Positions 29,530 through 38,153 of a stretch of DNA of 64,000 bases are shown here, piece by piece. How positions within the stretch are numbered: the first letter of the stretch is position 1; the number at the start of each line of letters is the position of its first letter. A program made the position numbers and the translations under genes. The notes beneath the pieces were generated by a model. That model worked only from the letters and a program-made list of their open reading frames with translations. It made no database searches and was not told where the DNA came from. Source of the stretch: Ideonella livida (lineage in GTDB: Bacteria; Pseudomonadota; Gammaproteobacteria; Burkholderiales; Burkholderiaceae_C); assembly GCF_010499455.1 (NCBI RefSeq), contig NZ_JAAGOH010000002.1, positions 124,001-188,000 of the forward strand. The letters run 5' to 3'.

Positions 29530-31467
29530 TCAGGTGATGCCGCCTGGGGCGGCCGGCCCTGAGGCCGTGCCGGTGGCCGGGGCACTGCGCTCCCAGCGCG
29601 GGGTGGCGCGCAGCACCTCCTCCAGCGTGGTCTGGCCCTCGGCCACCTTGGCCAGGCCGGCCATGCGCAGCGGCCGCATGCCTTCCTTGACGGCATGGCG
29701 GCGCAGACGGGCCAGGTCGAAGGTGGGATGGATGTCGTTCTGCAGCGCCTCGCTCAGGGTCATGAGCTCGTAGAGCGCGGTACGGCCGCGAAAACCCGTC
29801 TGACGGCAATCGGGGCAACCCACGGCGCGGTGCGGCCGCATGTGGGGAGACAGGCGCCAGGGCTGAGCCTGGCGCTCCAGCTCCTGGCGCACCGTGTCAC
29901 TGTCGTCCAGTGTCTTGCAGGTGGGGCACAGGGTACGGGTCAGGCGCTGAGCCAGCACGCCCACCACGGTGGCGGTGATCAGGTAGGGCGGCACGCCCAG
30001 GTCGATCAGCCGGGTGATGGAAGACGGTGCGTCATTGGTGTGCAGGGTGCTGAACACCAGGTGGCCGGTGAGCGCGGCTTGGATGGCCATCTCCGCGGTC
30101 TCCAGATCGCGGATCTCGCCGACCATGATGATGTCGGGGTCCTGGCGCATCAGGGCGCGCAGACCCTCGGCAAAACCCAGCTCGACCGCGGGCTGCACCT
30201 GCGTCTGGTTGAAGCTGGGCTCCACCATCTCGATGGGGTCCTCGACGGTGCAGACGTTGACCTCTTCGGTGGCGAGCTTCTTGAGTGTGGAATAGAGCGT
30301 GGTCGTCTTGCCCGAGCCGGTAGGCCCGGTCACCAGGACGATGCCGTGGCTGCGGCCGATGAGCTCGCCCCAGCGCACGGCCTCCTCCACCGAGAAGCCC
30401 AGTGCGTCGAAGGGCTTGTTCACCGACTCGGGGTCGAAGATGCGCATCACCACCTTCTCGCCGAAAGCGGTGGGCAGGGTCGACAGCCGCATCTCCACCT
30501 CGGCGTTCTCGCCCGGCGCCACCTGGGCGCGGCGGGTCTTGATGCGGCCATCCTGCGGGCGGCGCTTCTCGATCACGTCCATGCGGCCCAGCAGCTTGAT
30601 GCGGGCGGTCATGGCGGCCATCACCGGGGTGGGCACCTGGTGCACCAGGTGAAGCACCCCGTCGATGCGCAGGCGGATGACGCCCATGTCGCGCCGGGGT
30701 TCCAGGTGGATGTCGCTGGCGCGCTGGTCAAAGGCGTACTGCCAGAGCCAGTCGACGATCTGGATGACGCCCTGGTCGTTGGCATCCAGGTTGTCGCGGC
30801 CCTTGAGCTCCACCAGCTGCTCGAAGGTGTGGGCAGCGGCCGACTCGTTGGTCTTGCGGGCGTGGCGCACGTTGTGCGCCAGGGCGTAGAAGTCGCCGGT
30901 GAAGCGGTGGATCTCGTCGGGTGAGGCCAGGACCAGGCGGATGTGGCGCTTGGTGTGGGCCTCGATCTCCGGCACCCAGGCCACGTCGAAGGGCTCGCAG
31001 GTGGCGATGGTGATTTCCTGCACCCCCACATAAACCGGCAGCGAGCGCCGGTTCTCGGCGTAGGCCTGCGACATCACCTCCTGGACCTTGCTGGACTCGA
31101 CGCGCAGCGGGTCGATCTTCATGCTGCCCAGGCCACAGCGGCCGGCCAGCCACAGCACCAGCCGCTCCATGTTGAGCGGGTCGTGGCTGCGCTGGTCGCG
31201 CAGTCCGGCGCCCGCCAGGCGGCTCAGGGGATGCAGGGCCGAGTCGCTATGGCCAAAGCGCTTGGCCAGGCGGTCCGCCTCCTCCACGCTGAGCAGGCCG
31301 TCGTCGCGCAGCCACTTCAGCAGGCGCCGCATCTCCAGCCGGCCCTGGTAGCGCGGCCGCCCGCCAGGGGCCGTGGCGGAAGCGGGCGCAGCAGCCGCCG
31401 GCGGCGTGGTGGCCGCGCTGAGGGTGACAGAAGCGGCGGCAGGAGGAACGGCGTGGGTGAGGGTCAT
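29530..31467 (-). CDS. GspE/PilB-family secretion or pilus assembly ATPase
   Basis: 645 residues, in the size range of PilB/GspE hexameric ATPases that power type IV pili or type II secretion. A long Ala/Pro N-terminus and a GspE N-terminal domain precede ASDIHLEPRRDMGVIRLRID. Walker A is GPTGSGKTTTLYSTL (about residue 381), the Asp box and Walker B are in DIIMVGEIRDLETAEMA, and a zinc-binding pair is CPTC plus CPDC. No other pilus or secretion gene lies beside it. The start overlaps the stop of the upstream methyltransferase-fold gene by four bases (ATGA). Confidence 0.92.
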   Translation of the reverse strand: MTLTHAVPPAAASVTLSAATTPPAAAAPASATAPGGRPRYQGRLEMRRLLKWLRDDGLLSVEEADRLAKRFGHSDSALHPLSRLAGAGLRDQRSHDPLNMERLVLWLAGRCGLGSMKIDPLRVESSKVQEVMSQAYAENRRSLPVYVGVQEITIATCEPFDVAWVPEIEAHTKRHIRLVLASPDEIHRFTGDFYALAHNVRHARKTNESAAAHTFEQLVELKGRDNLDANDQGVIQIVDWLWQYAFDQRASDIHLEPRRDMGVIRLRIDGVLHLVHQVPTPVMAAMTARIKLLGRMDVIEKRRPQDGRIKTRRAQVAPGENAEVEMRLSTLPTAFGEKVVMRIFDPESVNKPFDALGFSVEEAVRWGELIGRSHGIVLVTGPTGSGKTTTLYSTLKKLATEEVNVCTVEDPIEMVEPSFNQTQVQPAVELGFAEGLRALMRQDPDIIMVGEIRDLETAEMAIQAALTGHLVFSTLHTNDAPSSITRLIDLGVPPYLITATVVGVLAQRLTRTLCPTCKTLDDSDTVRQELERQAQPWRLSPHMRPHRAVGCPDCRQTGFRGRTALYELMTLSEALQNDIHPTFDLARLRRHAVKEGMRPLRMAGLAKVAEGQTTLEEVLRATPRWERSAPATGTASGPAAPGGIT

Positions 31468-36054: not shown

Positions 36055-37131
36055 ATGAGCAACGATCAACACCCCTGGCTGGCCCAGGTCCTGGGCGTCA
36101 GCCCGCCTTGGAAGGTGACCGACGTCAAGCTGCTGGCCAAGACGGGACTGGTCTCCATCCAGATTGAGAAGGAGGAAGCCCAGCACCGCTTCTGGATGGG
36201 CCGTCGGCCCACCCCGCAGCGCCGCCTGCGCTGGGACCACATCGGCATGGCGGGCTACCGCTGCGAGATCGTGCTGCTGCTGCGCGAGGGCCAGTCGGTG
36301 CCCGAGGCCCCGTGGACCGGCTCGGCCGACCTGCCTTTCACCCGGCACCTCTCCCGCCTGGTGCTGGACCTGATGCTGGAGGGCGCCACGATGTCGCAGC
36401 TCTGCCGCATGCTGGAGCTGCCCTTCTCCGAACTCTGGAAGTACAAGTTCCGCCTGGACCAGGGCAGCGCCCAGGTGCCCGCCACCGCGGCCGCCACCAC
36501 GCCCCCCGCGGCCGGCACCGTCCCGGCCCCGCCGGCGGCGGCCACCGGCCCCGCCAGCCCCCAGGAGGCCGCCCCCACCAGCACGCCGGCGGCGGGGGCC
36601 ACCCCCATGGCCACCGGACCGGCCGGGCTGCCGCCGGCCGATGCACCGCTGTGGCTGCGCCTGCTCAAAGGCGAGCTCACCCTCGACGTGCAGGCCCTGA
36701 GCCTGAAGCTCCTGCTGAGCAAGGCCAGCCGGGAGGCCCGGCTGCATGAGGACGACGACCTGCACCGGCAGGCCGCGCAGGCCCTGCACCGCTACTTCGA
36801 GCGCAACGTGCCTATCCTGGGCCACGAGATCCGCCAGCTGCAAAGCCACTGGCGGGCCGCCGGCGGCGGTGGTGGTGGCGCAGCGGCCCCGGCCACGCTG
36901 CCTGATGTCAGCGACCCGCTGTGGCAGGACCTGCTCATGGGCGAGCGCGACCTGGACGTGCGCGCCCTGAGCCTGCGCCTGCTGCTGTCCAAGCTGCGCG
37001 GCCAAGCCCGCGCCTTGCAAGACGACGAACTGCGCATGCTCAAACTGGTCGAGCTGCACCGATTCTTCGAGAAGAACCAGGCCACGCTGCGGCACGAGAT
37101 CAGCCAGATCTCGCGCTGGTCCCTCCACTGA
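36055..37131 (+). CDS. ISL3-transposase-derived N-terminal domain fused to two helical repeats; unknown function
   Basis: 358 residues. Residues 12-135 (VLGVSPPWKVTDVKL; RLRWDHIG; SADLPFTRHLSRLVLDLML; LELPFSELWKYKF) follow the N-terminal order of ISL3-family transposases: beta-hairpin, zinc-finger position, then helix-turn-helix. The CxxC cysteines are absent and there is no DDE catalytic domain. An Ala/Pro linker (138-196) leads to two repeats (198-262 and 288-352) sharing LDVxALSLxLLLSK and HEI; these may be dimerisation or docking helices. The stop overlaps the next start. Probably a regulator derived from a transposase; this is inference from visual comparison and no function is known to me. 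Confidence 0.6.
   Translation: MSNDQHPWLAQVLGVSPPWKVTDVKLLAKTGLVSIQIEKEEAQHRFWMGRRPTPQRRLRWDHIGMAGYRCEIVLLLREGQSVPEAPWTGSADLPFTRHLSRLVLDLMLEGATMSQLCRMLELPFSELWKYKFRLDQGSAQVPATAAATTPPAAGTVPAPPAAATGPASPQEAAPTSTPAAGATPMATGPAGLPPADAPLWLRLLKGELTLDVQALSLKLLLSKASREARLHEDDDLHRQAAQALHRYFERNVPILGHEIRQLQSHWRAAGGGGGGAAAPATLPDVSDPLWQDLLMGERDLDVRALSLRLLLSKLRGQARALQDDELRMLKLVELHRFFEKNQATLRHEISQISRWSLH
36646..36840 (+). repeat. internal protein repeat copy 1
   Basis: Codes residues 198-262 of the protein above (PLWLRLLKGELTLDVQALSL...). It aligns without gaps to copy 2, with about half of 65 positions identical. Confidence 0.8.
36916..37110 (+). repeat. internal protein repeat copy 2
   Basis: Codes residues 288-352 (PLWQDLLMGERDLDVRALSL...). 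A Gly/Ala linker separates it from copy 1. Confidence 0.8.
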
Positions 37132-38153
37132 TGTCCGCGAGGCCCCCCATGCAAGCCCTCACCCACGAACTCCTGACCCTGGCCGACACCACGGCGCTCA
37201 TCCAGGCTGGCAAAGCCTGCTGCATCGCCGCCGACGAGGCACTGCTGCGGCGGCTGCCACGCGGCAACTGGATCGGCGGCACCATCCCGTACTTCATGGC
37301 CCACCAGGGCGGCACGTGCAGCCGCGACCAGCTCTTCGTCGCGGAGCTGGCCACCGAAGGCGGCGGCCGCCCCACCGTGCGCTGCTACGACCGCCACAGC
37401 CTGCGCAACGTCTGCCTGGACTCACCCGACCACGGCTTCTCGGTCATGGTGCTGCCGGCCTTCAGCGCGGTGCATGAGGCCTTTGCCCAAGAGGCCCCCG
37501 ACTACCCGGACATGTACATGAAGCCCCTGGTGGGCTGGATCGCCGGGGTGCACCTGGACGACATCGGCCGCGCCACCCCCCAGGTGATCGACGGCAGCTC
37601 CGGCGAACTGCTGCGTGACGCCGCCGTGGTCATGCACATCCCCCTGCCCCCGCAGTGGGCCGCCCATGTCGACATCATCAACCTGTTCGTGCCCGGCAGC
37701 GGCCCTGAGCTGCGCTTTCCGCAGGGCGGCTTCAGCGGCGGCGATTGCCTGATCGGCGGGCAGCCGGGCAATCTGCATGACTGGCTGGTGGCCCAGCGGG
37801 TGGACACCCGCCTGCCCCTGGTGGCCGACTACCACGGGGCCATGGTCAACGTCAGCATCAAGGCCCTGGACCCGGCCCAGCGCAAGGTGGAGTTCTACGC
37901 CCCGGTCTTCGCCGACGTGCCCTACCGCGTGGCCGAACCGGTGGGCGACTACGCCCGCGCCTTTGAAGTGGCGTCCCTGCACAGCCAGGTCCCCGGCGAA
38001 CTGGTGTTCTGCTGTAACTGCATCCTGAACTACGCCTACGGCAACCTGCAGGGCCGCAGAACCGGCGCCATGGTAGGTCCCATGACCTTTGGCGAAATCG
38101 GCTACCAGCTGCTCAACCAGACCATGGTGCACCTCTCCCTGGTGCCTGCCTGA
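37131..38153 (+). CDS. FIST_C-like protein coupled to the preceding gene; function unknown
   Basis: 340 residues, no signal peptide or membrane helix. The middle holds a conserved-looking core (LRRLPRGNWIGGTIPYFM; VDIINLFVPGSGP; FPQGGFSGGDCLIGG). The C-terminus GELVFCCNCILNYAYGN then GPMTFGEIGYQLLNQTMVHL closely follows the end of FIST_C domains (small-molecule sensors, often tied to signalling proteins). The ATG overlaps the previous stop (TGATG), so the two are made together; 37149 is an alternative start. I do not recognise a characterised homologue; a ligand-sensing partner is inferred. Confidence 0.6.
   Translation: MSARPPMQALTHELLTLADTTALIQAGKACCIAADEALLRRLPRGNWIGGTIPYFMAHQGGTCSRDQLFVAELATEGGGRPTVRCYDRHSLRNVCLDSPDHGFSVMVLPAFSAVHEAFAQEAPDYPDMYMKPLVGWIAGVHLDDIGRATPQVIDGSSGELLRDAAVVMHIPLPPQWAAHVDIINLFVPGSGPELRFPQGGFSGGDCLIGGQPGNLHDWLVAQRVDTRLPLVADYHGAMVNVSIKALDPAQRKVEFYAPVFADVPYRVAEPVGDYARAFEVASLHSQVPGELVFCCNCILNYAYGNLQGRRTGAMVGPMTFGEIGYQLLNQTMVHLSLVPA

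Follow-up and report, generated by a model that had tools for sequence, protein, structure and literature searches.

The DNA-binding domains of transposases have been captured by host regulators in eukaryotes, with FHY3/FAR1, DAYSLEEPER and SETMAR as examples, and among the titles and opening lines of abstracts listed no bacterial account of such reuse of an ISL3 or other transposase domain was found. ISL3 transposases are described by the Pfam models Zn_ribbon_ISL3 (PF14690), HTH_Tnp_ISL3 (PF13542) and DDE_Tnp_ISL3 (PF01610), and FIST proteins include the NosP heme NO sensors and FBXO22. FIST has been put forward as a sensory domain (PMC11185555), and NosP senses NO via FIST and heme and modulates a kinase (PMC12570481). 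The gene pair analysed here resembles the eukaryotic transposase-derived transcription factors in that a transposase DNA-binding region probably has been reused in a host gene, but it is bacterial, ISL3-type and operon-coupled to a possibly FIST-like protein, and its regulatory role is putative. With ISL3 transposases its first gene shares about 130 colinear N-terminal residues, including the patterns LG..PW.V...., WRHL and PW...FT followed by the helix-turn-helix region; unlike them, it lacks the DDE domain and any CxxC pair and instead carries helical repeats and has a DUF6976 partner.

The window, which means the whole analysed stretch of 64,000 nucleotides from Ideonella livida (contig NZ_JAAGOH010000002.1, positions 124,001 to 188,000), holds gene 1 at 36055..37131 on the forward strand, as are all features of the pair. 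It encodes a 358-aa fusion protein of an ISL3-type front end, a low-complexity linker and two helical repeats. The ISL3-transposase-like N-terminal domain (residues 1-137; 36055..36465) is supported by hhalign and by an AF2 model built on a 7-row alignment (mean pLDDT 74.3), which predicted four beta strands at residues 19-27, 32-39, 55-65 and 68-77, followed by three helices at 97-108, 113-120 and 124-135; block-mean pLDDT was 84-89 at residues 11-40, 53 at 41-50 and 76-87 at 51-130. The helix-turn-helix-like end of the domain as predicted by AF2 (residues 95-135; 36337..36459) was aligned with the helix-turn-helix region of ISL3. All motifs named in the preliminary description are present in the order given there, with LGVSPPWKVTDVKL at residues 13-26, RLRWDHIG at 57-64 and FTRHLSRLVLDLML at 95-108, together with the helix-turn-helix-like end. 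The Ala/Pro/Thr-rich linker (36466..36642) is weakly conserved and of low AF2 confidence (pLDDT <50 at residues 144-189). Two repeats of about 66 aa follow, copy 1 at residues 197-262 (36643..36840) and copy 2 at residues 287-352 (36913..37110), which are 53% identical to each other, predicted as helical by AF2 and matched by the repeat profile with E 5.6e-26 and 1.1e-27, values that are not independent because the profile contains both window copies. The TGA of gene 1 overlaps the ATG of gene 2 (TGATG), a DUF6976 gene at 37131..38153 (PF22396; 458.6 bits versus a cut-off of 27, E 1.1e-137). The preliminary description had already called gene 1 coupled but left the partner gene unnamed. The protein turned out to be a fusion with tandem helical repeats, on which that description was silent.

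The relationship of the front end to ISL3 transposases was examined by profile-profile comparison, as had been proposed as a check. Residues 1-130 were colinear with ISL3 N-termini by hhalign (E 3.9e-17, probability 98.9, 127 columns, score 102.3), using nine family rows against nine ISL3 N-termini that were at first gathered separately, the ISL3 profile holding no family member; the control templates scored far lower, 14.1 when reversed and at most 21.8 in 60 column shuffles, which bears out the earlier assignment of residues 12-135 to an ISL3 transposase N-terminus. When a 24-row ISL3 profile was used, the window protein ranked top of 413 window ORFs (E 5.2e-9; runner-up E 0.023), and when scaled to an assumed database of one million sequences, E was below 0.001 for 16 of the 17 family rows and 1.4 for L094; this set leans towards the family because 19 of its 24 rows derive from loci that the family profile had itself retrieved, three of these places also being found by the single ISL3 front-end query described below. 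The 9-row ISL3 profile matched 10 of 13 ORFs adjacent to DUF6976 at 1.5e-4 or better (best 5.2e-10), the 13 being those DUF6976 neighbours that the family profile matched at E <1e-5, and the remaining three were L094 (0.04), L105 (0.07) and the unlisted fragment L091. The front end of the ISL3 transposase from the window's own genome gave matches in 17 of 149 genomes when used as a query, and one of these matches was L070, a family member with a helical repeat (E 1.5e-5), which at the level of sequence is a direct one-to-one link between ISL3 and the gene 1 family. The window sequence alone gave no ISL3 match in Pfam or NCBIfam. Among 15 family members, the commonest Pfam matches were HTH_Tnp_ISL3 (4/15, best 3.2e-4) and Zn_ribbon_ISL3 (3/15, best 6.3e-5), and NCBIfam transpos_ISL3 matched two (best 2.3e-8). 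The helix-turn-helix region is strongly conserved, with W128, G110 and C117 near invariant in 15 rows. From these alignments we conclude that the front end of gene 1 is homologous to the part of ISL3-family transposases that recognises the element ends, a beta domain with a helix-turn-helix, and that it probably descends from that part.

The statement that no DDE catalytic domain follows was confirmed, as Pfam gave no DDE_Tnp_ISL3 match in the window protein up to E 10 and a DDE-profile match was absent both from the gene 1 ORF and from its 3.4-kb locus. Other candidates from the single-protein family scans (Pfam, NCBIfam and PHROGs) were rejected: HTH_29/HTH_23 at residues 69-85 were weak, below cut-off and outside the predicted helix-turn-helix, hydr1_PEP in repeat 1 reached E 0.0018 and 17.6 bits versus a cut-off of 168, KorB in repeat 2 reached E 0.13, below cut-off, and the linker matches, GltJ and a single PHROG, were likewise below cut-off. 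A Foldseek search of the PDB with the AF2 model of the window protein gave nothing significant; an ISCth4 transposase came third (E 3.2) and was not counted as evidence. The repeat profile found nothing in the PDB better than E 0.1, and the designed repeat protein 8vd6, which came up in a PDB sequence search with the family (E 4.9e-9), was dismissed as the sum of five sub-threshold stretches with single-stretch E values of at least 8.

In the reverse direction, the family profile gave matches in at least 8 of 143 and at least 19 of 300 genomes, the first pass covering up to 28 and 13 candidates per genome, respectively, so that misses are possible. Of 51 classified loci found in this way, 38 encode a DDE domain in the same ORF (12 being copies from genome G224 and 6 from G323), three have one elsewhere in the locus, four are family members with the repeat and six are short fragments (64-137 aa) without DDE; no other kinds of protein were met among the 51, a count that leaves out seven further G323 rows scoring like the other copies from that genome. 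A first scan of contigs with the window protein alone was empty, and a scan with the alignment led to six loci.

The preliminary description had noted missing zinc cysteines as well, and indeed the window front end has no CxxC pair. Such pairs are missing in 16 of 17 family rows, the exception being L018, a distant member with five repeats that retains CPHC and CIC at the ISL3-corresponding places. The loss is nevertheless no mark of domestication, since any CxxC pair is likewise absent from 8 of the 24 ISL3 front ends; six of these eight belong to ORFs 412-435 aa long, of which five match DDE strongly and the sixth is L063, and the other two belong to shorter ORFs that match DDE in part. A tree of 41 front ends groups the 16 CxxC-free family rows in one clade (99/97) and gives L018 no firm placement, and its split between 17 family and 24 ISL3 rows is weak (57/1) and unrooted. 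A single capture of the ISL3 front end by the family is possible on this tree. The net charge of the last 45 residues was -1 to +2 in the 17 family rows, and over the whole domain the family is similar to ISL3 in mean charge (1.2 versus 2.0).

Conservation across Burkholderiales, which had been suggested for checking, proved patchy: the family was found in 5 of the 16 genomes searched from the genus group, including that of the window (same-genus relatives in G001, G005, G006 and G013), and in 3 of 300 genomes of the order, with distant relatives in MAGs of Oxalobacteraceae and Rhodocyclaceae. Family versions have one, two or five repeat copies. Among three close relatives the front end showed dN of 0.013-0.023 versus dS of 0.125-0.171, and between the window and L008 dN was 0.76 for the linker and 0.24 for the front end. 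The gene is intact in relatives and its front end is under purifying selection; together with the absence of a transposase behind the front end and the coupling to gene 2, this partly supports the earlier idea of a domesticated domain.

Searches for DUF6976, each of which counted the window's own genome, gave 30 positives among 399 genomes of the bacterial family, 3 among 274 sampled from the class and 3 above cut-off among 398 sampled from the phylum, where a limit of E 0.001 admits 5. At 40 of 43 DUF6976 places a repeat-domain gene lies directly upstream, 22 times with and 18 times without the ISL3 front end; 39 of these partners were recognised by the repeat profile and L019 by a weaker tag, and some of the 43 places had been located via the front end itself. 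Of the 33 found by way of DUF6976, 14 have the front end, 17 do not and two were set aside. Among the 40 are a DUF6976 truncated where its locus ends (L025) and another divided between two frames (L110), and one of the 22 front-end partners (L012) is cut by a contig start. Set aside were L111, which is cut by a contig start, L112, a DUF6976 remnant in two short frame pieces for which a partner was not found, and L113 (1158-2161; genome G896), a broken DUF6976 with a truncated ISL3-type partner and as such a decayed copy of the pair. DUF6976 is the constant companion of a repeat-domain gene. The window's genome itself has one pair with the front end and one repeat-only pair with a short partner (L017, contig C29, 4505-5767). 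In a DUF6976 tree of 38 rows, 17 of 18 repeat-only pairs form one clade (100/100) and L019 served as outgroup; constraining all 20 front-end pairs together was not rejected (p 0.27).

No paper naming DUF6976 was found in the literature search. For the AF2 model of gene 2 (pLDDT 71.6), Foldseek ranks 1, 3, 4 and 5 in the PDB were FIST chains of FBXO22 (E 0.02-0.11, prob 0.91-0.51), rank 2 was the unrelated nematode protein MFP2B (E 0.03, prob 0.07), and no PDB match reached E 0.001. Alignment of 28 DUF6976 rows with nine FIST rows by hhalign covered the last 101 columns with a score of 33 (E 0.002, probability 14%; best of 60 shuffles 22.4), and a Pfam scan of gene 2 up to E 10 listed no FIST family. 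A likeness to FIST proteins is suggested by the FBXO22 ranks, the alignment of a C-terminal motif (GEI...NQT) and signalling genes nearby in some genomes; on the other hand, it stays below significance thresholds, DUF6976 is a separate Pfam family and its partner is not a histidine kinase. A weak resemblance of DUF6976 to the FIST sensor domain is suggested by the model and the alignment.

Neighbours of the pair are claimed here only with Pfam, profile or tblastn support because automatic ORF picking is poor at this GC content; two were named by reading, as indicated. In G239 (L018, 886-11509) the same-strand genes after the pair encode a response regulator, a small CheY-like protein (named by reading), CheW, an MCP and a CheA-type kinase; in G112 they encode CheR, CheB and FliK. 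A response-regulator gene lies about 0.6-1.9 kb from the pair in five loci from one part of the DUF6976 tree (L198-L202), and PilT/PilU-like ATPases (named by reading) adjoin the pair in L022. Nine chemotaxis and pilus queries drawn from three pair loci had matches in 11 of 27 other pair loci versus 2 of 20 control regions (5 matches), where the pair loci are not independent and the controls were hand-picked at round coordinates. The sole match to these queries in 18 kb of the window was a PilT-type ATPase-like stretch on the reverse strand (29890-30372; E 7e-31 with the query from L022), about 5.7 kb from gene 1.

On balance, we consider it most likely that gene 1 and DUF6976 form a two-gene signalling module that has acquired the DNA-binding domain of a transposase. 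Starting from the observed homology, the repeats, the absence of DDE and the DUF6976 neighbour, we infer DNA binding, a signal and targets for this module. The DDE catalytic domain is absent and one, two or five copies of the approximately 66-aa helical repeat would have taken its place; DUF6976, if FIST-like, may sense or relay a signal and may dock on the helical repeats, which every partner version seen has in common. The ISL3-type domain would then bring the DUF6976 complex to DNA, where the state of DUF6976 could alter transcription at target sites, and repeat-only pairs probably act without DNA, e.g. in chemotaxis-type pathways. A rather unlikely elaboration would be that a one-time capture of the end-recognition domain, joined to a modular helical-repeat array, created a DNA-tethered receptor for a FIST-type sensor that possibly still reads sites derived from IS ends, with repeat number (1, 2 or 5) tuning the sensor count on DNA.

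A doubtful but still conceivable alternative is that the ISL3-derived front end has given up DNA binding and instead mediates protein contacts, or acts as a scaffold, within a chemotaxis or type IV pilus signalling complex that also contains the FIST-like protein. The nearly general absence of CxxC pairs in the family and the near-neutral charge of the last 45 front-end residues would fit, as would the repeat-only partners, the chemotaxis genes downstream in G239 and G112 and the ATPases in L022; however, a third of the ISL3 front ends equally do without CxxC pairs, and the helix-turn-helix region, with its near-invariant W128, G110 and C117, is strongly conserved in a front end under purifying selection. 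It appears improbable that the transfer went the other way, from a cellular regulator of the gene 1 type to ISL3 transposases, or that an older DNA-binding domain gave rise to both front ends: the unrooted tree and its weakly supported split would permit it, but ISL3 elements outnumber family members in the same searches (38 versus 4 of 51 loci, copies counted), the cysteines of L018 stand at ISL3-like places, and the ISL3 rows are diverse where the 16 other family rows are one supported clade. Least of all do we expect that the gene is an ISL3 pseudogene in decay or that its resemblance arose by chance. Nothing in the window points to decay, which was seen in one broken pair elsewhere (G896), and against it stand intact frames in several genera, the constant partner and dN well below dS; chance is countered by the far lower scores of the shuffled and reversed controls.

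For the favoured reading, capture into a signalling module, the family offers a concrete testable case with members that differ in repeat number (one, two or five) and in whether they have the cysteines and the ISL3 domain. DUF6976 gains a possible class as FIST-like protein and a constant partner, and the pair points to a part of a mobile element reused in cell signalling. Several results count against this reading: the near-neutral last 45 residues, the sub-threshold FIST match, the lack of a significant PDB match for the window protein, the single PilT-like stretch in the scanned 18 kb, and the searches for binding sites. Upstream of five orthologs no clear operator palindrome was found, with only L009 and L011 clearly above shuffled means, and upstream sequence compared with the termini of the ISL3 copy in the window's genome gave no convincing match, the real score in four comparisons being reached by 1, 106, 310 and 489 of 500 shuffles.

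During the searches, weak PF01610 matches, nearly all over the cut-off, were obtained in most of 60 genomes on an ORF of about 400 aa, which in the one example examined (L032) resembles a fatty-acid desaturase and is a trap for automatic IS counts; ISL3 proteins were accepted solely from PF01610 rows with E <1e-60. An ISL3 element of about 1420 bp is present in the window's genome (L238, 543-1962; contig C13 of G000), and its ends agree at 22 of 30 positions.
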